This document shows positions 2,465 to 36,454 of a DNA stretch of 36,772 bases, in pieces; within the stretch, counting starts at the first letter, position 1, and the number at the start of each line of letters is the position of its first letter. The position numbers and the translations under genes are program-made. The DNA lies in assembly GCA_903822545.1 (NCBI GenBank), contig CAIJPN010000045.1, forward strand, positions 1 through 36,772. Reading direction: 5' to 3'. The notes under the pieces were generated by a model, which saw nothing but the letters and a program-made list of their open reading frames with translations, made no database searches and was not told the origin of the DNA. The stretch is from an uncultured Anaerolineae bacterium (GTDB taxonomy: Bacteria; Chloroflexota; Anaerolineae; Anaerolineales; Villigracilaceae).

Positions 2465-2962
2465 CTACTTGACCGATTCCATCTGGGTGTTGGTGATCTC
2501 AACTTTGGCAACAAAGGAGCAGCCTTCATTGCGCACTACTTCGATCCAGCGTGAACTGCCAGGGATTTTTGCGGTTTTTTTGCGGATGCGCGAAATTAAC
2601 GGGCTGATGACCTTGATCGGGGCGTTTTTTGAATCGATGTTGCAGTAGCGTACCGAATCTTCGTAAGAGACTACTTTGCCAGAGTTTGCAACCAGCAAAT
2701 GGATCAGCCGGTTTTCGGCTGGAGAGAAGTAAACGCGCTGCTGCCCCTGGCGGATAAAACGCTTGGATGGGTCATATTCGATACCATCTTGTTCAGCCAC
2801 CCCTGCTCCCGCCATTGTTTGCCGTACCTGCGCATTAATCTGTTCGGGAGAGATGTTTGACATCAGGGCAATACGTACTGCCAAATCTAAATTTGTCAGC
2901 GCATCTTCATATGGGATAAAGTTTGTGTTGGTCGGTCCTGCCATTGGTAATCTAGAATGCAT
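2465..2962 (-). CDS. Winged-helix (OmpR-type) DNA-binding protein without receiver
   Basis: This protein of about 165 residues has a C-terminal half that reads as an OmpR/PhoB-type winged helix: a YDPSKRFIRQGQQRVYFSPAENRLIHLLVANSGKVV start, then recognition-helix and wing segments (VISPLISRIRKKTAKIPG, WIEVVRNEGCSFV). The N-terminal 65 residues are not a receiver and contain no phospho-acceptor motif. An ATG at 2971 directly abuts the AGGAGG Shine-Dalgarno with no spacing, whereas the ATG at 2962 is spaced about 9 nt from it, so I choose 2962 (MHSRLPMAG). It is probably a transcription factor; its signal and targets are unknown. It lies downstream of the two-component pair at 3078-7311 but has its own leader and terminator. 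Confidence 0.8.
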   Translation of the reverse strand: MHSRLPMAGPTNTNFIPYEDALTNLDLAVRIALMSNISPEQINAQVRQTMAGAGVAEQDGIEYDPSKRFIRQGQQRVYFSPAENRLIHLLVANSGKVVSYEDSVRYCNIDSKNAPIKVISPLISRIRKKTAKIPGSSRWIEVVRNEGCSFVAKVEITNTQMESVK

Positions 2963-3037
2963 GAGTTCCATCCTCCTATCCCAATTATATTTCCTGTTTG
3001 GTTACGATGACTTATCGGTTCTGTTTCCCTTATACCG

Positions 3038-3050
3038 TATAGTGACTATA
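3038..3050. promoter_or_regulatory. Small palindrome in leader of winged-helix gene
   Basis: The sequence TATAGTGACTATA is a 6-bp inverted repeat around one central base. It lies about 75 nt upstream of the winged-helix start and just after the response regulator stop at 3078. A TATAAG hexamer on the minus strand is only a few bases away and could act as a -10 element. Its position suits an operator, but there is no second copy in the window to support that. Confidence 0.3.
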
Positions 3051-3077
3051 GCCAGGTGGATAAAAGGTTCAAAGGTT

Positions 3078-3731
3078 TTATTTGTCGAGCAAACCCATCT
3101 TCATGGCAGTGGCAACCGCTTCCGTGCGGCTTTGCACATTGAGCTTGGATAAGATATTGCTTGTGTATTGTTTTACGGTGGAAAGCTGCAAAACCAGCCG
3201 CACCGCAATCTGTTTATTGGTAAGTCCCTGGGCCAGCAGGCGCAGCACATCCCATTCGCGGTCACTCAATTCCGCTTTCATCACATCGTTTCCGCTAGAG
3301 CTGGTCTGTAACATGCGCAGCATCACATCGGATGCTTTGGGATCGAGGATGGTTCTGCCCCGGTAGGTTTGGCGGATGGCGTCGGCCAGTTCATCCACAC
3401 TGACATCTTTATACAGGAACCCACGCGCCCCGGCTTTTAATGCCGCTTCGATGAGTTTTTCCTCGCTGAAAGATGTCAGCGCAATCACGGCCACGCCAGG
3501 CGCTTCTTTTTGGATGGTGGCAATGGCCGCTGCTCCATTCTGTTCGGGCATAACCATATCCATCAGCACCACATCAGGGTGTTCGCGTCGGAAGAGTTCC
3601 AGCCCATCACTGGCATTGGATGCTTCGCCCACCAACTGTAAATCGGGGAACCCGCTGACGAACATTGCCAGCCCTTTGCGTACCATTGGGTGGTCATCCA
3701 CAATCAACACTTTTATGATGTCATCAGGCAT
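3078..3731 (-). CDS. NarL/FixJ-family response regulator
   Basis: This protein of 217 residues starts at MPDDIIKVLIVDDHP, with AGGAAA upstream. Residues 5-120 are a receiver with the acidic pair VDDHP, phospho-acceptor Asp near residue 58 (VVLMDMVMP), a Thr/Ser switch (ALTSF) and the conserved Lys (FLYKDVS). Residues 150-217 are a LuxR-type helix-turn-helix (LSDREWDVLRLLAQGLTNKQIA, STVKQYTSNILSKL). The start overlaps the end of the upstream kinase gene by 8 nt, so the two are translationally coupled and form a cognate pair. It is expected to bind DNA as a dimer once phosphorylated. All catalytic residues are intact, unlike the related broken regulator at 298-952. Starts further upstream would lie inside the kinase gene and are not supported. 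Confidence 0.93.
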   Translation of the reverse strand: MPDDIIKVLIVDDHPMVRKGLAMFVSGFPDLQLVGEASNASDGLELFRREHPDVVLMDMVMPEQNGAAAIATIQKEAPGVAVIALTSFSEEKLIEAALKAGARGFLYKDVSVDELADAIRQTYRGRTILDPKASDVMLRMLQTSSSGNDVMKAELSDREWDVLRLLAQGLTNKQIAVRLVLQLSTVKQYTSNILSKLNVQSRTEAVATAMKMGLLDK

Positions 3732-7437: not shown

Positions 7438-8586
7438 ATGAGTTTTTCTGAAAAAATCGATGAATGGATCAAGGAAGCCGAAGCGCGCCCGGCCTCGGCA
7501 CTGCTGGTGCTTAAACTGGTCGCCAACCGCCTGCGCGAACTGGCCGAGCAGAACGAAACGCTGCTCAACGAAAACATCGCCTTGCGCGATGGCACGCGCG
7601 TGGAAGAGTACCAAAAGCGCATCACTCATCTCGAATACCAGCTCGAAATACTCAAACGGCGCGTTGGCTCGGGCGCAGAACTGCCCATCCAGGCCGAAAT
7701 CCCTGCCAGCCTGCTCATTTACAATGCCCACGGACGCATCGCGCGCTTCGTGATTGATCCGGCGGCCCCGGTTTTTGGCAAACTCGATGGCGAAATCGTG
7801 CAGGATGGGGAATTCCCGCGCTTGTTGGCGATTCCGGGCGACGAGGAAGTGCTGCTACTGTTCACATCTGGTCGCATCGCCACCTGCCCCGTCAGCGGAA
7901 TCCAGGCCATGCCGCCGGGCGCTGCCTGGGCTTGGGACAAGGCCGACCTGCCCGAAGAACCGCACGCCGGGGAAATGCTGGCCTGCATCATGCCGCTCTC
8001 GCGCCTGTCGCTTGCTGATAGTTTCATGCAGGCCAGCCGCCGGGGCTGCGTCAAAAAAACCCTGACCACGGTGGCCCAATCCATACTGGACAACCGCTAC
8101 CTGGGGCGTGGCGCCATCCAAAAATCTGACCAGCCTTTTGATGTGCTGCTGGCCCAGAAAAAAGAACGCTATGCGCTCGTCACCTACGAAGGCCGCCTGA
8201 TGGGCATCGATGTGGGCGATCTCTCCTACGCCGCCGAAGAGCGCATTCGCATCAGCGCCACCGACTACATCATCGGCGCGTTCACCATCCAGCCAGGGCA
8301 GAACATCCTATGCGTTACGCAGAACGGCAAAGTTATCCAGCGCGAGGCCGGGTTTCTCGAAGTAGCCAAAACCGGCGCATCACGCGGACAGGCGCTCATC
8401 CCCCAGGCGCGGCTGGATGCGGGCGTGCGTTTTGTCGGCGCAGTGGCGGCGCGGGATGTGGACCAACTTGTGGCGCTGGATGCCACGGGGAATCTATCTG
8501 TCCATTTAACGGGAGACGTGGCCGGGGCGGGAAGCATCCGCCCTGGGGCTGTGATCCTGTCCATTGGGCTGATCCCAACCCCGTAG
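7438..8586 (+). CDS. Coiled-coil protein with stand-alone GyrA C-terminal-like propeller repeats
   Basis: This 382-residue protein begins at ATG 7438 (AAGGA upstream). Residues 20-75 are charged and leucine-rich and look like a coiled coil (LVANRLRELAEQNETLLNENIAL, YQKRITHLEYQLEILKRR). The rest contains repeated blades like those of the GyrA/ParC C-terminal DNA-wrapping domain: LLLFTSGRIATCPVSGIQ near 140, SFMQASRRGCVKKT near 195, YALVTYEGRLMGIDVGDL near 245, ILCVTQNGKVIQREAGFL near 290, and LVALDATGNLSVHLTGDV near 343. There is no topoisomerase breakage-reunion domain, catalytic Tyr or clear GyrA-box, so it is not a gyrase. It could bind DNA or act as a propeller scaffold. It is followed 60 nt later by an Hsp70-like gene on the same strand, suggesting an operon. 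Confidence 0.75.
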   Translation: MSFSEKIDEWIKEAEARPASALLVLKLVANRLRELAEQNETLLNENIALRDGTRVEEYQKRITHLEYQLEILKRRVGSGAELPIQAEIPASLLIYNAHGRIARFVIDPAAPVFGKLDGEIVQDGEFPRLLAIPGDEEVLLLFTSGRIATCPVSGIQAMPPGAAWAWDKADLPEEPHAGEMLACIMPLSRLSLADSFMQASRRGCVKKTLTTVAQSILDNRYLGRGAIQKSDQPFDVLLAQKKERYALVTYEGRLMGIDVGDLSYAAEERIRISATDYIIGAFTIQPGQNILCVTQNGKVIQREAGFLEVAKTGASRGQALIPQARLDAGVRFVGAVAARDVDQLVALDATGNLSVHLTGDVAGAGSIRPGAVILSIGLIPTP

Positions 8587-8646
8587 CGCAGGATTAACAT
8601 CCCGCGCTGGCTAATAGGCAGGAACGAGGAAAATACAGGAGAACCC

Positions 8647-9978
8647 ATGAAAGTTGGCATTGACTTTGGCACATCCAACTCTGGCGTCGCCATCTACGAC
8701 GGCCAGCGTGTGACCGTATTGCCAATTGATCGGCAAAATGTGCTGCCCGAAGTGGTTAAAACCGTGCTATACGTTACCCGCGACTACGAGTGTTTCATCG
8801 GACAGGAGGCGATTGCGCAGTATTACCGCGACAACGTCAACCGCCAGCGCCGTTTTGTGAAAAAATGGGCCGGTGAAATCGATGTGATCGGCGCGGATAT
8901 GCACTTTGTGCGCGATGTCTACGTGATGGTAGATGAGATGAAGCCGGGGCGGCTGATGCAATACCTGAAAACTGCGCTGCGCAAGGAAGGTTTTCACGGC
9001 ACACAGGTTTTTGAGCGCTTTTACACCCCCGGTGACTTGGCGCAGGCCTACCTGGGACTGCTCAAACAACGCGCCGAGCAGATTTTGGGGGAAAAGATCG
9101 ATGCTGTGACCCTGGGCCGCCCGGTGAAGTTTGCGGCCACGCCCGAAGGCGACCGCCGCGCCGAAGAGACGCTGCGCGCCGCCGCGCATGCAGCCGGTTT
9201 TGAGCAGGTGGATTTTGAGTTGGAGCCAATCGCCGCCGCACTCGATTACGAGCAGACGCTCGAAAAACCCCAAAACGTGATCATTTTCGACTTTGGCGGT
9301 GGCACGCTGGACATTGCCGTAATGCGCCTGGGCGGCCCTTCGTCAGGCTCGGGGCGTAAAGTATATGCCAGCGGTGGCGTGGATATTGCCGGTAGCGATT
9401 TCGACCGTGCTATCATCGAAAAGCGTATGTTGCAGCACTTCGGCTTGGGGCGCATCAACCACCAACCAGAGATTTTGGAGATGATCCAGGCCGTCCCAGA
9501 TTGGATGGCGCTGCCCGAGCTTGCCACACCGCTGAATCGCAACACGCTCGAAAAAGCCATCCGCGCCGGGCTGGCTCCTGCGCGCCTGAAAGCGCTGCAA
9601 GGGCTGATCTACAACGACCTGGCCTTCACCTTCTACAACCGGGTGGAGGCCGCCAAAATCGCACTTTCCAGCCAGGGTGCCACCACCATCAGCCTGGACG
9701 ACAGCGGTATCGCACTCTGGGAGTTGTACACACGCCACCAGTTTGAATCTGACATCTTTGATTATCTTGGCAAAGTGGAAAAAGTGCTGCTCGATACCCT
9801 GGCCGCCTCCGGGCTGGAGCCGGGCAATATCGACGCCATCGTCAAAACCGGCGGCTCTTCGAATATCCCGCTATTTGCGGGAATGCTGGCGCGAATTTTC
9901 GGTGCCGGCAAAGTCAAGCAATCGAACGCTTTCAGCAGCGTGGTGGCAGGGCTGGCGATACGCGCAAAAGCCGGGTAG
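8647..9978 (+). CDS. Hsp70-family protein, YegD-like
   Basis: This 443-residue protein has a strong AGGAG before the ATG. The actin/Hsp70 ATPase motifs are intact: phosphate-1 (VGIDFGTSNSGVAIYD, residues 3-18), phosphate-2 (IIFDFGGGTLDIAVMRL, about 214-230) and the adenosine motif (VKTGGSSNIPLFAGML, about 399-414). There is no classical substrate-binding beta-sandwich or lid after the ATPase domain, and the length matches the E. coli YegD type (about 450 residues) rather than DnaK (about 640). It lacks dnaJ or grpE neighbours, so it is unlikely to be the housekeeping chaperone. Pairing with the GyrA-C-like protein upstream suggests a shared function, possibly with that protein acting as client or adaptor; this is inference. 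Confidence 0.88.
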   Translation: MKVGIDFGTSNSGVAIYDGQRVTVLPIDRQNVLPEVVKTVLYVTRDYECFIGQEAIAQYYRDNVNRQRRFVKKWAGEIDVIGADMHFVRDVYVMVDEMKPGRLMQYLKTALRKEGFHGTQVFERFYTPGDLAQAYLGLLKQRAEQILGEKIDAVTLGRPVKFAATPEGDRRAEETLRAAAHAAGFEQVDFELEPIAAALDYEQTLEKPQNVIIFDFGGGTLDIAVMRLGGPSSGSGRKVYASGGVDIAGSDFDRAIIEKRMLQHFGLGRINHQPEILEMIQAVPDWMALPELATPLNRNTLEKAIRAGLAPARLKALQGLIYNDLAFTFYNRVEAAKIALSSQGATTISLDDSGIALWELYTRHQFESDIFDYLGKVEKVLLDTLAASGLEPGNIDAIVKTGGSSNIPLFAGMLARIFGAGKVKQSNAFSSVVAGLAIRAKAG

Positions 9979-31779: not shown

Positions 31780-33432
31780 TTATACCTGCCGTATTCCTCC
31801 ATTTTCCACCAGCCACAAATCTTCGGCGAAGCGTTCGATGAAGTAGCGGTCGTGGACGACGGCCAGGATGGTGCCTTTGAAGCTGGCCAGGGCCTGCTCG
31901 AAGCGTGCCCGCGAGGGGATGTCGAGGTGGTTGATGGGTTCGTCGAGGATCAGGAAGGTGCAGCCCTGGGCCACCAGCAGCGCCAGTTGCAGGCGGGCGC
32001 GCTCGCCGTAGCTGAGATGGGCCGCCGGGCGCAGCGGATCGTCGCCGCTGAACAGGAAAAAATGCAGGAAGTGTCGCGCTTCGGTTTCGTTGAACGGCGC
32101 AACCTTTTGGACGGTTTGCAGGGCGGTCAGGCGCGGGTCGAGCATTTCTTGTTCCTGGGTCATGTAGCCCATGCGCACGTTCGCGCCGATTTTGAGCGTG
32201 CCGCCCAGCGGCGGGAGTTTGCCTGCGAGGGTGCGCAGCAGGGTGGTTTTTCCCGCGCCGTTCGGCCCGCTGAAAGCGATGCGCTGCCCGGCGCGGATGG
32301 TGAGATTCAGGTTGCTCAGGAGTGGATTTTCTGTCGCGTAGCCAATATATAACGCTTCGGCCAGGACAACATCCCTGGATTGGTGGGCCGGTGCGCCGAA
32401 ATCCAGTTTCATTTGCCAGCTTGGGCGCGGTTTTTCGACTTTGTCTTCGTTGAGCAGTTTTTCGATGCGCGCTTCGATGTGTTTGGCGCGCCCGGCCACG
32501 TTTTTGGTGGCGCGGTTGCCGAAGAAGCCTTTGGCGAATTTGTCGCCGCCATCGGCTTTGCCGCCTTTTTTCATTTTGGTCAGGCCGCGAATGTGGGCGG
32601 CGGCGGCCTGGAGTTGGGCGATCTCGTCCTGTTGGTCTTGCCAGGCTTCGAGTTGTTTTTCGCGCTCGCTCAGCTTTTGTTCGATGTAGTCGGTGTAGTT
32701 GCCGGGGTAGGTGCGTACGCTGTGGCTGGCCGGGTCAAGCTCCAGGATGGTGGTGACGGTGTTGTCGAGGAAGGCGCGGTCGTGTGAGACGATCAGCGCC
32801 GCGCCGGGGAAGCCTTGCAGCCAGGTTTCGAGCCATTCGAGCATGGCGATGTCGAGGTGGTTGGTGGGTTCGTCGAGCAGCAGCAGGTTGGGCTGGTTGA
32901 GCAGTACGCGCGCCAGCATCAGCCGGGTTTTTTGCCCGCCAGAGAGGTGGGCGACAGGGGTTTCGAGCGGGAAGGTGTTGAGGCCGAGCGGGGTGAGGAG
33001 GGTGGCAAGCGGCAGGTGGAAGGTGGAAAGTGCCGCGATAGCGGAGTCGTAGCGAAGTTGAAGGGCCGAATCGCTGGGGTTTTGGGCAAGTGCCAGGGCC
33101 AGGGAGGCGATTTCAGCTTCGAGGCTTTCTTGGGTAGCGGCAGGCTGGTGCGGGGCGGAATCGGGATTCTGTTGCAGCAGGGAGGCGATGGTCGCGCCGG
33201 GGCTTGGTTCCAGTCCCTGGGCCAGGTATCCAACCTGTAGATTGACCTGGGTGCGGGCGATTGTGCCAGAATCGGCAGTCTCCAGCCCGGCCAGGATGCG
33301 CATGAGCGTGGTTTTTCCGCAGCCGTTGGGGCCGATGAGCCCGATGCGCTCGCGGGCCGAGATGCTGAAGGAGATGTCTTTGAGTATTGGCTGGATGCCG
33401 TAATGTTTGGTGATGTGGTGGGCGGTAAGCAT
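31780..33432 (-). CDS. ABC-F family ATPase
   Basis: This 550-residue protein starts at MLTAHHITKHYG; the frame continues to 33597 but would run through the repeat hairpins at 33458-33492, so I reject that. There are two ATP-binding cassettes. Domain 1 has Walker A GPNGCGKTT (about 34-42), signature LSGGQKTRL and Walker B LLLLDEPTNHLD. Domain 2 has Walker A GPNGAGKTT, a variant signature LSYGERARLQL and Walker B FLILDEPINHLD, in which Thr is replaced by Ile. A charged linker (RGLTKMKKGGKADGGDKFAKG and nearby) separates them. There are no membrane segments. Soluble ABC-F proteins act on ribosomes: they protect from antibiotics, rescue stalled ribosomes or aid translation. The subtype (Uup, EttA or resistance type) cannot be set by eye. 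The ribosome site is weak. Confidence 0.93.
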   Translation of the reverse strand: MLTAHHITKHYGIQPILKDISFSISARERIGLIGPNGCGKTTLMRILAGLETADSGTIARTQVNLQVGYLAQGLEPSPGATIASLLQQNPDSAPHQPAATQESLEAEIASLALALAQNPSDSALQLRYDSAIAALSTFHLPLATLLTPLGLNTFPLETPVAHLSGGQKTRLMLARVLLNQPNLLLLDEPTNHLDIAMLEWLETWLQGFPGAALIVSHDRAFLDNTVTTILELDPASHSVRTYPGNYTDYIEQKLSEREKQLEAWQDQQDEIAQLQAAAAHIRGLTKMKKGGKADGGDKFAKGFFGNRATKNVAGRAKHIEARIEKLLNEDKVEKPRPSWQMKLDFGAPAHQSRDVVLAEALYIGYATENPLLSNLNLTIRAGQRIAFSGPNGAGKTTLLRTLAGKLPPLGGTLKIGANVRMGYMTQEQEMLDPRLTALQTVQKVAPFNETEARHFLHFFLFSGDDPLRPAAHLSYGERARLQLALLVAQGCTFLILDEPINHLDIPSRARFEQALASFKGTILAVVHDRYFIERFAEDLWLVENGGIRQV

Positions 33433-33457
33433 GGTGAAAACCTGTGGCCCCTCCCGG

Positions 33458-33548
33458 CCTCCCCCAAATTCCAAAACCGAATTTGGGGGAGGGGATTGTG
33501 GGGATTGCATTCTCCATATTCCAAAACCGAATTGGGAGGAGGAGAATG
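33458..33548. repeat. Twin hairpins sharing the 16-bp motif ATTCCAAAACCGAATT
   Basis: The first hairpin has perfect 14-bp arms (33458-33471 and 33479-33492) with the loop CAAAACC. The second has outer arms CATTCTCC (33508-33515) and GGAGAATG (33541-33548). Both carry an identical 16-bp tip sequence at 33468-33483 and 33518-33533, exactly 50 bp apart. They lie just upstream of the ABC-F start, between it and the esterase operon terminator. Confidence 0.75.
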
Positions 33549-33550
33549 GG

Positions 33551-33587
33551 AGCATTAAAAACGAAAACCGGGGGCAAACGCCCCCGG
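33551..33587 (-). terminator. Intrinsic terminator of the CDF/ATP-grasp/esterase operon
   Basis: On the minus strand the perfect stem CCGGGGGC/GCCCCCGG (33568-33575 and 33580-33587) with a four-base loop is followed by TTTTCGTTTTT. It lies about 140 nt downstream of the esterase stop (33728). The spacer 33588-33727 shows nothing else I can name. Confidence 0.85.
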
Positions 33588-33727
33588 CTGGAATCATTTC
33601 AGCGGGTCGTACCCCAAATAATGGTGTATGGTCTACAGGTTGAGATGCATTTGTGTGGCTCCTGAATAATCGGACAGGGAAATTATATCACTGGGCTGGA
33701 GCGCAAAATCTCCCGATTTTGCTCTAA

Positions 33728-34471
33728 TTATTCAAGGTTTATCTTCTCAAGGAAATACGGCAGCATTTTGCGCCACCAGGGCCAGTCGTGGTTGACATCG
33801 TAACCCCACAGGTCGATCCAGGCCGGGATTTGCTTTTGCTCAAGGATTTGGCGCAACTCCCAGGCATCGTGGAGCATTTCATCTTCCCAGGCGCCCTGCC
33901 CGGCGCAGACGATGATCTGGCTCTGGCGGTACTGGTCGAGGTACCAGGGATCGTTCATGTTGCGCAAGAAACTGAGCGGCGAATTGAAATAAACGTTTTC
34001 GTCGCTGTAATCGCCGATGAACATATTTAGCCGGAAAACGCCGCTGATGGCGATTAGCGCATCGAAAATATCGGGGTGGCGGAAGAAAAAGTTGGCGCTG
34101 TGGTAGCCGCCCATGCTGACGCCAGTGGTCAGGAATTTTTGCGGGCTGCCGCCGCAGTGCTGGCGGATGAATGGCGCGACTTCATCTGTGATGTAGCGAT
34201 CGTAATCGTTGTGGCGGCGGGCGCGGTCGGCGGGATGGGCGTTCCAGTTGGTCCAGGTCTGGTTGTCCACGCTGTCAACGGTGAAAACTTTGACTTTCCC
34301 GGCTTCGATGAAGGGCGCGGCAGCTTCGATCATGCCGAAGTTTTCGAAGTCATAGAATCGGCCTTCCTGGGCTGGGAAAACCAACACGGGTTTGCCATAA
34401 TGCCCGTAGACTTTGAGCTCCATCTCGTGCCCGAGGGCCGGGCTGTGCCATTTGTGTTGTTCGATTTGCAT
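33728..34471 (-). CDS. Alpha/beta-hydrolase esterase (COG4947-like)
   Basis: This 247-residue protein starts at MQIEQHKWHSPALGHEMELKVYG and has no signal peptide. Hydrolase marks are the nucleophile elbow GVSMGG (Ser 119), preceded by FLTTGVSMGGYHSANFFFRHPD, a strand pattern like esterase D/FrsA, and a late His in DVNHDW (His 228). The oxyanion and acidic residues are harder to place (Glu 197 or Asp nearby). It probably hydrolyses an ester or thioester of a small molecule in the cytoplasm. It begins 3 nt after the ATP-grasp gene stops and is the last gene of the four-gene operon, so it likely acts on the ligase product or removes a by-product (inference). Confidence 0.88.
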   Translation of the reverse strand: MQIEQHKWHSPALGHEMELKVYGHYGKPVLVFPAQEGRFYDFENFGMIEAAAPFIEAGKVKVFTVDSVDNQTWTNWNAHPADRARRHNDYDRYITDEVAPFIRQHCGGSPQKFLTTGVSMGGYHSANFFFRHPDIFDALIAISGVFRLNMFIGDYSDENVYFNSPLSFLRNMNDPWYLDQYRQSQIIVCAGQGAWEDEMLHDAWELRQILEQKQIPAWIDLWGYDVNHDWPWWRKMLPYFLEKINLE

Positions 34472-34474
34472 GGT

Positions 34475-35638
34475 TTACGCCAATCCCTGGATGAATTTTG
34501 CCATCTGGATGATTTCATCCTGTTCCGGGGTGCGGATCAGGTAGCCGTAATCGCCCAGGGCTGCGCTGAATACGCCGCTGATGGGTTCGTGGTGGCAGAT
34601 GCGCGCACCTACTTCGGCCAGGACTTCTTCGTGGCTGTGAATGTAGTTGCGGTTGAACTTGCGTCCAATGTAGGCGCAGTGATAGGGCCGCGAGAATTTG
34701 GCGCTGAAGTGATTATGAACGACTACATGCGCCCATTCGGCGTAGATGTTGATGTCGTTGGCGAAGTTGAACATATCGGTGGTCAGGCCTCCGGGTGGGC
34801 GCATGTTGACTTCCAGCGCCACGATCTGGTTATCGGTGCGGCGGCGGAAAAACTCAAAGTGGAAGAAACGCTCTTTTACGCCAAAGGCTTTCAGTGTGCG
34901 CCGTCCGGCGGTTTCCAGGTCGGCGGGGATGTTGCGCAGCGAGTAGTAATAGACCAGGTCATCCTGGTTGACTGTTTCCATAATGCCCTGGCTGTACTGG
35001 TGGGCGGTATAAAAAACCAGTTTGCCATCGCGGTCGGTCAGACCATCGAAGGACAGGATGACGCCATCTACAAATTCTTCCATGATGTAATCGACATCGG
35101 GTTTGGTGGCGAAAAAATCTGCCAGCTCAGCCGGGGTGTGGATTTTGTAGGTTTTTGCTGCGCCGACGCCGATATCCGGTTTGGCAACAACGGGGTAGCC
35201 GGTTTCTTCGATCAGGCTGTTGGCATCTGCCAGGGTGCGCACCACCTTTCCGCGCGCTACCGGAACGCCAGCCTTGATGTACTGCTGTTTCATCAACGAT
35301 TTGCGCTTGATCTTGTCGATGCTGTCGTTGTTGACGCCAAAAATGTTGAAATCGGTGCGCAATTGGGCTTCGGTTTGCAGCCAGTATTCGTTGAGCGAGT
35401 CGATCCGGTCGATTTTGCCATAGCGGTGGGTGAAGTATCCCAGGGCGCGCAGCAAATCATCGTAATTGTGCATGTTGCCGACACGGTAGTACTCCGTCAG
35501 GGCGGCGCGCAATTCTGGGTGGAGCGATTCATAGTTTTCATCGGCCAGGCCCAGGACGGTGACGCCCAAATTCCGCAGTTGGATGGAAAAATTGCGGTAG
35601 TTGGGCGGGAAATGGGGGGAAAGATAAACGAAGTTCAT
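34475..35638 (-). CDS. ATP-grasp family carboxylate-amine/thiol ligase
   Basis: This 387-residue protein begins at MNFVYLSPHFPPNYRNF. N-terminal residues 1-110 form a Rossmann-like pre-ATP-grasp domain. The ATP-grasp core is at about 115-330: GVPVARGKVV, GYPVVAKPDIGVGAAKTYKI (Lys for phosphate), YIMEEFVDG (adenine-side EE), FHFEFFRR, and ALEVNMRPPGG with the metal-binding Glu and Asn. Such enzymes activate a carboxylate as acylphosphate and join it to an amine or thiol. No classical purK, ddl or carbamoyl-phosphate signature is visible, so the substrate is unknown. Its ATG overlaps the stop of the 52-residue gene by four bases (ATGA). Confidence 0.9.
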   Translation of the reverse strand: MNFVYLSPHFPPNYRNFSIQLRNLGVTVLGLADENYESLHPELRAALTEYYRVGNMHNYDDLLRALGYFTHRYGKIDRIDSLNEYWLQTEAQLRTDFNIFGVNNDSIDKIKRKSLMKQQYIKAGVPVARGKVVRTLADANSLIEETGYPVVAKPDIGVGAAKTYKIHTPAELADFFATKPDVDYIMEEFVDGVILSFDGLTDRDGKLVFYTAHQYSQGIMETVNQDDLVYYYSLRNIPADLETAGRRTLKAFGVKERFFHFEFFRRRTDNQIVALEVNMRPPGGLTTDMFNFANDINIYAEWAHVVVHNHFSAKFSRPYHCAYIGRKFNRNYIHSHEEVLAEVGARICHHEPISGVFSAALGDYGYLIRTPEQDEIIQMAKFIQGLA

Positions 35639-35793
35639 TGGTTTTCCTTCAGTTTTTCTTCTTCAAGCGCTTCGTGGGCGCGCTTTTGCATGGAGCGGCT
35701 TTCGATGTATAGCCCGCCAAAGACCAGGATGAGCATCAGCAGGCAGATGCCGTAGCAGATAAAGGTGGCCTGGTCTTCGGGGGTGATGAACAT
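35635..35793 (-). CDS. 52-residue single-pass membrane protein
   Basis: It starts at MFITPEDQATF (ATG 35793), spaced seven bases from GAGG inside the end of the transporter gene and only 1 nt after that gene's stop. A single hydrophobic helix occupies about residues 10-30 (TFICYGICLLMLILVFGGLYI). A charged C-terminal tail follows (ESRSMQKRAHEALEEEKLKENQ), predicted as a cytoplasmic amphipathic helix. I do not recognise a family. The tight overlaps on both sides suggest a small membrane partner of the transporter or an anchor for the ATP-grasp enzyme (inference). Confidence 0.75.
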   Translation of the reverse strand: MFITPEDQATFICYGICLLMLILVFGGLYIESRSMQKRAHEALEEEKLKENQ

Positions 35794-35794
35794 C

Positions 35795-36454
35795 TCAGGC
35801 CTCGCAGTGATCGTCGCCGCAGGAACATTCCATCCCGGCAGCTTTCTCGAAGGCTTCTTTGCCCTCATTATAGGAGAAGTAGATCAGCCCGAGTGCGCCC
35901 AGGCTGTCGATAAAGCCAAATCCGGTCAGCTGGTAGATGAGACTGGATGCCAGCAAAACGCACGACATGTAGATGCAGACCAGGGTGCAGTTGGCATCTG
36001 CCAGGATGGGGGCGGAGTCGAGGGCGTGGCCTACTTTGCGTTTGGCTGAAACCAGCGCCCACATCATGGCAATTGACACCAGCGAGATGATGATGCCCGG
36101 CAGGGTGGTTTCGGGCTTGTGCCCGGTGACGATGTTGGCGATGGCAGTCAGCGCCAGCCCGGCGGCCAGCACGTAAAAGGCTGTGCCGGTGATTTTCAGG
36201 GCGGTTTTCTCAAACTCAGAGCGCGATGTGCCGGGGTTTTGGCGGATGCGCAGCACCATGGCGACGATGCCCAGGCCGGATATCACTTCGATGAAGCTAT
36301 CCACGCCGAAGCCGAACAGGGCGATGGTTTCATCAGAAACGCCGAAGTAGATCGAAACCAGCCCTTCGAGCAGGTTGTAAAAAACGGTAAAAATGCCCAG
36401 GTACAGGGCGTATTGGAAGTACTTTTGGGTGTTGGCTTGGGTCAGGGTGGTCAA
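35795..36454 (-). CDS. CDF-type cation transporter membrane domain with Cys metal site
   Basis: This 219-residue protein starts with TTG at 36454, six bases after GGAG. There are six membrane helices in the CDF arrangement, without the C-terminal cytoplasmic metallochaperone-like domain. TM2 carries FGVDSFIEVISG (Asp 52, Glu 56) where YiiP has Asp-x3-Asp. TM5 carries LADANCTLVCIYMS (Cys 156, Cys 160) at the place of YiiP His-x3-Asp. The tail MECSCGDDHCEA adds three Cys and one His. The family exports Zn2+, Mn2+, Fe2+ or Cd2+ by proton exchange. Cysteine ligands here suggest a softer metal such as Cd2+, Cu+ or Zn2+ (inference). It heads the four-gene operon. Confidence 0.87.
   Translation of the reverse strand: MTTLTQANTQKYFQYALYLGIFTVFYNLLEGLVSIYFGVSDETIALFGFGVDSFIEVISGLGIVAMVLRIRQNPGTSRSEFEKTALKITGTAFYVLAAGLALTAIANIVTGHKPETTLPGIIISLVSIAMMWALVSAKRKVGHALDSAPILADANCTLVCIYMSCVLLASSLIYQLTGFGFIDSLGALGLIYFSYNEGKEAFEKAAGMECSCGDDHCEA

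Follow-up and report, generated by a model that had tools for sequence, protein, structure and literature searches.

A recurrent ATP-grasp ligase–esterase gene pair and its apparent insertion behind a transporter gene in an Anaerolineae bacterium

Our analysis of a 36,772-nucleotide stretch of DNA from an uncultured Anaerolineae bacterium (contig CAIJPN010000045.1, hereafter the window) indicates that an ATP-grasp ligase gene (GRASP) and an esterase gene (EST) stand together as a conserved pair in many bacterial phyla. In the window these two genes, together with the gene of a small membrane peptide (PEP), appear to have been inserted just 3' of the stop codon of a cation-diffusion-facilitator-like transporter gene (CDF), before the old terminator (Table 1). 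We lean toward the view that the locus is composite, with a ligase–esterase module and PEP inserted behind a resident CDF, and that the two enzymes share one small molecule.

Table 1. Coordinates of the genes and other features at the locus, in window positions
Feature	Position	Strand	Basis
CDF, short cation-diffusion-facilitator-like transporter gene	35795..36454	-	TTG start, 219 aa, Pfam
PEP, 52-aa protein gene, predicted membrane span and charged tail	35635..35793	-	ORF and homolog
GRASP, ATP-grasp ligase gene (PF13535), 387 aa	34475..35638	-	Pfam, predicted structure, alignment
EST, alpha/beta-hydrolase esterase gene (PF00756), 247 aa	33728..34471	-	Pfam, predicted structure, alignment
Old CDF/ABC-F intergenic sequence, now 3' of EST	33566..33690	-	Alignment with the gaps in G224 and G028
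Terminator hairpin	33589-33566	-	10 pairs, 8 of them G-C, then a T-rich tail
ABC-F ATPase gene, ORF as listed	31780..33597	-	Pfam; synteny in relatives

Predicted activities of the ligase and the esterase

GRASP passes the gathering cut-off of the Pfam family ATP-grasp_4 (E 2.6e-9, 37.3 bits against 27), and K113, K153, E187, E262, E276 and N278 are invariant in all 49 rows of its alignment; we take these to be the lysines and magnesium ligands of ATP-grasp enzymes. Judged by its structure model (pLDDT 95.5), the nearest solved structures are L-amino acid ligases. BL00235 (3VOT), RizA (4WD3) and BacD (3VMM) share the fold over its full length at Z 27-33 and 360-374 residues, with 3VOT at Z 32.8 (rmsd 3.5, 361 aligned) and 4WD3 at Z 31.5 (rmsd 4.1, 360 aligned), but these ligases are just 14-19% identical to GRASP, and PurK-type enzymes trail them by only some 3-4 Z units. 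Set against RizA by profile alignment, GRASP shares an upstream Glu as well as the Glu and Arg in the ExNxR motif, whereas RizA has Ala at the place of the invariant Asn278. The protein is not filed as BacD because its score against the NCBIfam BacD model, 22.1 bits, lies far under the cut-off of 850; no other L-amino acid ligase model was found among the listed matches.

EST likewise passes its Pfam gathering cut-off (E 4.2e-13, 50.1 bits against 22) and yields a structure model with a pLDDT of 96.9. The serine of its GxSxG motif, S119, and H228 are invariant in 38 of 38 rows, and an acidic residue, a candidate for the third member of the triad, stands at position 196 in 37 rows and at position 197 in 33. 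The putative catalytic residues of both enzymes appear intact. Its alpha/beta-hydrolase fold resembles those of CE1/PF00756 esterases, namely the feruloyl esterases 5VOL and 7XRT, S-formylglutathione hydrolases and FphF (Z 23-25), and 5VOL has the same GxSxG serine and HDW histidine motif. EST differs from these structures in its low identity (12-18%), in having no obvious signal peptide and in an additional loop, GAWEDEM, at the acidic position, a loop that L046 and L047, two COG4947-like relatives, have in shortened form. Against the S-formylglutathione hydrolase FghA model TIGR02821 it scores 15.3 bits, with a cut-off of 281.7.

The same fold is used by acyltransferases, and EST could in principle move an acyl group to another acceptor rather than act as a hydrolase. 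Ag85 and corynebacterial mycolyltransferases are indeed among its structural matches at Z 21-23, only slightly below the esterases and S-formylglutathione hydrolases, a separation that is poor. Ag85-type enzymes, however, are secreted, and EST, by reading of its sequence, begins with no obvious signal sequence. We therefore regard a transferase as rather unlikely. Our best reading, from sequence and structure models, is that GRASP would be a cytosolic ATP-dependent carboxylate-amine ligase and EST a serine hydrolase, both acting on one small metabolite.

Recurrence of the pair across bacteria

A search with an alignment of nine Chloroflexota and three plasmid-borne sequences found at least 583 GRASP relatives, and the best 80, from about ten phyla, were examined for their neighbors. 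Longest-ORF gene calls in high-GC loci often picked antisense frames, so adjacency was counted by profile matches. EST adjoins GRASP in 57 of these 80 loci, which are no random sample because they are the best-scoring relatives of a Chloroflexota- and plasmid-based alignment. It follows GRASP in the same orientation in 50 of the 57, 9-154 nt away, and in the other seven the two genes are divergent. In two of the 23 loci without EST the sequence stops no more than 200 nt past GRASP, and in a third (L094) it starts 230 nt ahead of that gene; the remainder have room for EST. At L115 a different, non-orthologous PF00756 esterase occupies the place of EST. Distances among GRASP sequences correlate with those among EST sequences (r=0.73 for 56 sequences, none of 1000 permutations as high) in a mirror-tree comparison made without species-tree control.

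The partnership is not strict. On plasmids, EST adjoins GRASP in three of the four records that carry the latter, the exception being a Massilia plasmid, and a close EST is found in only five of the 11 Chloroflexota genomes with a close GRASP, from which we conclude that EST is dispensable or replaceable. Neither a tandem GRASP paralog nor a COG4947-like EST, used as query against plasmids, brought up informative context. A skeptic might see in all this a mere genomic association of mobile, handy genes with separate substrates; the EST-less loci and the patchy spread of GRASP (17 of 400 Chloroflexota) would suit that explanation. Equal adjacency in about ten phyla, the correlated divergence and the substituted esterase at L115 speak against it, and we consider it unlikely.

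More distant relatives of EST lend the pairing independent support. The EST profile contains two COG4947-like rows and matches 93 of 400 Chloroflexota, only five of them at 370 bits or more and thus true EST. At 20 COG4947-like loci picked by hand from these matches, a RimK-like ATP-grasp gene lies nearby in 17, and 16 have a second ATP-grasp-like gene; a PF13535-type GRASP was found in none of the 20 by the GRASP profile at 1e-5. The resulting cluster of EST relative, RimK-like ATP-grasp, second ATP-grasp-like gene and GCS2 thus resembles the GRASP–EST pair in placing a related esterase by an ATP-grasp ligase, but draws on other ligase families and has more genes. The survey of amidoligase operons by Iyer et al. 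2009 is said to describe ATP-grasp ligases beside hydrolases in conserved neighborhoods. ATP-grasp loci with alpha/beta hydrolases in conserved neighborhoods also appear in the accessible part of PMC8939145. No description of the GRASP–EST pair was found in the literature searched, which included the accessible parts of PMC4431377, PMC8939145, PMC2922099 and PMC6920838. Together, the adjacency, the correlated divergence and the ATP-grasp genes beside distant EST relatives bear out one suggestion of the earlier note, that ligase and esterase belong together and may share a molecule.

Origin of the four-gene arrangement

The earlier note had described CDF, PEP, GRASP and EST as a coupled operon with one terminator, and this layout is confirmed: the four minus-strand ORFs are joined by a 1-nt gap, a 4-nt overlap (ATGA) and a 3-nt gap, and behind them lies a hairpin with a T-rich tail. 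A scan of the window found eight terminator-like sites where shuffled sequences gave 3.3 +/- 2.4, and the terminator claim therefore rests on conservation in relatives. The stretch that holds the hairpin aligns to the gap between CDF and the ABC-F gene in two relatives, G224 and G028, where hairpin and T-tract are kept. In the window the hairpin sits within the ABC-F ORF as listed; because its surroundings align with an intergenic gap in the relatives, the listed start is probably too far upstream and the real one near 33432.

CDF itself passes the gathering cut-off of PF01545 Cation_efflux (E 9.2e-9, 35.8 bits against 26.6) and reaches 33 bits with the NCBIfam CDF superfamily model TIGR01297, below the cut-off of 82.35. 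It has a Cys-rich tail and, in a weak alignment to FieF (E 0.88), CxxxC where TM5 has HxxxD, features that point to a divergent relative of the family rather than a canonical member. Orthologs with 68-75% identity are present in 12 of 24 other genomes of the same family; none of the 24 has a GRASP match. The copy in G367 carries an in-frame stop. We compared 11 of these 12 loci, leaving out G387, where the contig ends. PEP, GRASP and EST are absent from all 11. In 10 of them the next recognised window gene is the ABC-F gene and/or a G5/3D-domain gene (in L170 after ~0.8 kb of other sequence), and in L163 no window gene besides CDF was recognised. L160 has CDF, ABC-F, G5/3D and LytR plus three more genes in the order of the window. 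These comparisons suggest that CDF - ABC-F - G5/3D - LytR is the ancestral order and CDF the older resident. Because the relatives' loci stand without the other three genes and the old intergenic sequence survives behind EST, we favor a model in which PEP, GRASP and EST were inserted.

PEP would have arrived with the two enzymes. A single convincing homolog, which starts with GTG at the corresponding position and stands before a radical-SAM/SPASM gene, backs the start chosen for the 52-aa reading frame. That homolog, in G410 (E 2.7e-13), and the window copy are the only convincing ones among 30 matches at E up to 1 in 100 same-family genomes, the other 28 having E 0.02 or weaker; a profile of the two rows matched one of 400 Chloroflexota, the window itself. 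The two sequences conserve an ESRxxQxRA stretch. Its best Pfam match is CcmD (PF04995; E 0.096, 13.2 bits against a gathering cut-off of 25.6), and both CcmD and PatX were rejected as below cut-off. A role as a usual partner of CDF has no support, PEP being found at none of the 11 CDF loci. Bearing on a possible link of PEP to tungsten-cofactor maturation, three TIGR04317-like genes (277-298 bits, cut-off 380) lie on other contigs of this genome, and matches below cut-off to the same family occur likewise in 14 of 14 control genomes.

The earlier note had read the four genes as one metal-linked small-molecule or peptide system, for example for a metallophore or a capped thiol; in a fuller form of this reading, CDF would export the product with the help of PEP. 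The tight junctions and single terminator would agree with this, as would the cysteines of CDF in its tail and in place of the His and Asp of FieF, and a second esterase in a distant cluster (L041) carries an Enterochelin_N domain. However, CDF and PEP were each found at none of the 80 GRASP loci and none of 15 Chloroflexota loci, and CDF is common in relatives that have no GRASP. To our knowledge, no CDF protein exports an organic molecule. We reject the four-gene metal system as quite improbable; the link to metal has no support. As far as was searched, the set of four is unique to this genome while its single genes occur elsewhere in other contexts, an outcome that the earlier note itself had named as counting against the proposal, and what endures of it is the pair. 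Modification of PEP by GRASP as a graspetide or in a peptide-tagging system, with EST trimming the product, is very improbable: PEP overlaps GRASP by 4 nt and its homolog stands before another class of maturase, but PEP, searched as the precursor, was found at none of the 80 GRASP loci, which lends no support to it as a usual partner of the ligase, its predicted membrane span and ESRxxQxRA stretch (seen in two sequences) do not look like leader and core, graspetide families are not among the listed Pfam and NCBIfam matches, and the nearest folds are dipeptide ligases.

A proposed small-molecule cycle

We envision a scenario in which a two-gene ligase–esterase module, with the PEP gene in front, landed behind the CDF stop codon. 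Because it sits between that stop and CDF's old terminator, the module probably rides on the CDF transcript. GRASP would most likely spend ATP on turning a carboxylate, probably that of an amino acid, into an activated acyl phosphate and then couple it to an amine. EST, as a serine hydrolase, would cleave a bond (ester, thioester or amide) in the small molecule that GRASP handles and could either deblock the substrate or product of GRASP or dismantle the product. The pairing is seen directly in the genomes and the insertion in their comparison; the common substrate and the sequence of reactions we infer.

More speculatively, GRASP and EST could be the complete, portable machinery of an undescribed cytosolic cycle in which an amide-linked, dipeptide-like compound is made and then unmasked or destroyed. 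Such a unit would have spread through some ten phyla and could settle before a resident terminator, borrowing its transcript. We offer this wider proposal only tentatively.

Insertion can thus build what looks like a four-gene operon, textbook couplings included, and tight junctions alone are no proof of common function. The pair should be cheap to test, consisting of two enzymes without obvious signal sequences and with no carrier protein seen and no large cluster. Its constancy across about ten phyla amid changing neighbors makes it a strong lead to an undescribed small molecule.

A composite gene set

CDF, PEP, GRASP and EST, which encode a short cation-diffusion-facilitator-like transporter, a 52-aa membrane peptide, an ATP-grasp ligase and an esterase, had been described in an earlier note as a coupled four-gene operon, perhaps a metal-linked system. 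The ORF coordinates bear out the four reading frames and their junctions, all on the minus strand; among the matches listed (25 of 27 for GRASP), none of the four products reaches an NCBIfam cut-off. We find that the set is a composite.

Features of the four-gene region in the window
Feature	Coordinates	Strand	Pfam
CDF	36454-35795	minus	Cation_efflux above cut-off
PEP	35793-35635	minus	nothing above cut-off
GRASP	35638-34475	minus	ATP-grasp_4 above cut-off
EST	34471-33728	minus	Esterase above cut-off

CDF matches (E<=1e-15) occur in 76 of 400 Chloroflexota genomes, including 12 of the 24 other genomes from the window's family, Villigracilaceae (68-75% identity); in the same sample, none of these 24 has a GRASP match. 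PEP, GRASP and EST were found in none of the 11 same-family CDF loci, out of the 12, that we compared (0/11; tblastn, 1e-4), which argues against a four-gene system as a unit. The next recognised window gene downstream of CDF is ABC-F or G5/3D, both of which follow EST in the window, in 10 of these 11 loci; in L163, CDF is the sole window gene recognised. Locus L160 keeps the window order for CDF, ABC-F, G5/3D, LytR (also downstream of EST) and three more genes. In two relatives, the CDF/ABC-F gap can be aligned to the stretch that follows EST in the window; the match spans from within the ABC-F ORF as listed to a point about 40 nt from the EST stop codon, and it contains a hairpin with a T-tract (33589-33566 in the window, minus strand) shared with the relatives. 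Because the ancestral gene order lacks the block and the old gap with its hairpin now stands behind EST, sequence comparison indicates that a ~2.1-kb block, which brought in PEP, GRASP and EST, was inserted after the CDF stop codon and ahead of the former CDF terminator.

The terminator hairpin thus lies behind CDF in the relatives (the L160 and L167 CDF/ABC-F gaps), whereas in the window it follows EST; the stem sequence differs between the two settings (GGGGGC/GCCCCC against GAGGGC/GCCCTC), with pairing preserved. PEP, GRASP and EST are close to CDF in GC (0.52-0.56; CDF 0.57) and GC3 (0.71-0.75; CDF 0.76), and slightly lower in GC than genes further downstream (0.61-0.64).

The transporter is a bystander. 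It is a 219-aa CDF-like protein without a cytoplasmic domain, with CxxxC instead of HxxxD in the TM5 motif when aligned with FieF, as also seen in the same-family orthologs whose ORFs were inspected, and with a Cys/His-rich C-terminus (CSCGDDHC). PEP is an unexplained passenger. Its one convincing homolog among 100 same-family genomes (48% identity; L186:9087-9233, minus strand) sits between a GAF histidine kinase gene and a radical-SAM/SPASM gene (7806-9071, minus strand; TIGR04317-like, scoring 268 bits where the cut-off is 380), in a genome whose GRASP matches are weak and partial only (E 4.8e-7 or weaker). The radical-SAM/SPASM protein resembles tungsten-cofactor maturases (TIGR04317), and its N-terminus reads like an AbrB domain, without confirmation by Pfam.

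Distribution of the ligase-esterase pair

The proposed grouping was half right: GRASP and EST belong together, and CDF and PEP drop out as members. A wider scan, in which each species was represented by a single genome, gave at least 583 GRASP relatives, and the best 80 were analysed. A profile search placed EST next to GRASP in 57 of these 80 loci: in 50 it follows GRASP on that gene's strand at a distance of 9-154 nt, and in seven the two are divergent. Neither CDF (phmmer, E up to 1e-3) nor PEP (E up to 1) was found in any of the 80. Pairwise distances of GRASP and EST, with species relatedness still included, correlate at r=0.73 across 56 sequences (the window and 55 loci, two loci with incomplete pieces being left out); none of 1000 label permutations was as high (maximum 0.22). 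Judged from record titles and taxonomic labels, many of them for metagenome bins, the 57 pair loci include members of Chloroflexota, Thermodesulfobacteriota, Myxococcota, Deinococcota, Bacillota, Melainabacteria/Cyanobacteriota, Bacteroidota, Pseudomonadota, Fidelibacterota and Muiribacteriota. Four plasmid records carry GRASP; EST adjoins it in three (Peptoclostridium, Pararhizobium, Sinorhizobium), and the Massilia plasmid has no EST match and no esterase among the annotated neighbours.

The 23 loci counted without EST include two that stop <200 nt after GRASP (L084, L112), one that starts 230 nt before it (L094) and L115, where another PF00756 esterase lies 16 nt downstream. Among the 400 Chloroflexota, GRASP occurs in 17 (E<=1e-20), 11 of these at >=49% identity. 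Close-subfamily EST (>=370 bits) is found in only five genomes, in all five beside a close GRASP. Against the pairing, 6 of the 11 close-GRASP genomes lack a close EST, namely G363 and five of one family; those five each have two COG4947-like esterases elsewhere in the genome. The window genome has one full GRASP, one short weak GRASP match and one EST, and its GRASP is sister to that of an Anaerolineaceae MAG (100/96). The GRASP-EST pair is a real module, uncharacterised as far as the literature was searched, of a known general kind, an ATP-grasp ligase with a hydrolase.

Predicted structures and proposed chemistry

The predicted fold of GRASP is closest to the L-amino acid ligases BL00235 and RizA. 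The model (pLDDT 95.5) fits BL00235 best (Z 32.8, rmsd 3.5, 361 aligned), followed by RizA (Z 31.5, rmsd 4.1, 360 aligned), with PurK behind these ligases (Z 28.6); a profile search also ranks RizA first (1.3e-25). Presumably, L-amino acid ligases of this kind belong to the class using aminoacyl phosphates. L-amino acid ligases need ATP, and ligases are split by two classes of intermediate, as outlined in PMC6920838. ATP-grasp enzymes are mainly carboxylate-amine ligases, some acting with thiols or hydroxyls, according to a reviewer's remark in PMC4431377; because of the latter, an ester or thioester product of GRASP is possible.

The EST model (pLDDT 96.9) matches both feruloyl esterases and S-formylglutathione hydrolases at Z 23-25, and Ag85-type acyltransferases score slightly lower. 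GRASP and EST both retain their putative catalytic residues, and no obvious signal peptide was seen by eye at the start of either. We envision that GRASP would ligate and EST would hydrolyse, both on one cytosolic small molecule, the EST step being substrate unblocking, product processing or product degradation.

Related ligase and esterase clusters

Tandem GRASP pairs occur in 9 of the 80 loci, one cut by a contig end, and a second kind of PF00756 esterase in five. Four of these five (L099, L115, L124, L128) group in a single, supported clade of the GRASP tree (98/93) spanning Bacillota, Thermodesulfobacteriota and Pseudomonadota; in L115 this different PF00756-like esterase (2540-3322, plus strand) takes EST's place behind GRASP. 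Four genomes of one Chloroflexota family carry clusters of three distant GRASPs (L038, L039, L040, L041) with EST-like esterases nearby, one having an Enterochelin_N domain.

Chloroflexota also carry COG4947-like relatives of EST, and in 17 of 20 such loci (L217-L236; the exceptions are L223, L230 and L234) a RimK-like ATP-grasp is close by; that of L217 has no Pfam match. A second ATP-grasp-like protein is present in 16 of the 20, and the one tested matched circularly permuted ATP-grasp weakly, below the cut-off. Several of the loci show a GCS2 carboxylate-amine ligase, with Pfam confirmation in L220, the one tested. With this conserved cluster and the GRASP-EST pair, there are thus two dissimilar operons in which one esterase family is tied to ATP-grasp ligases.
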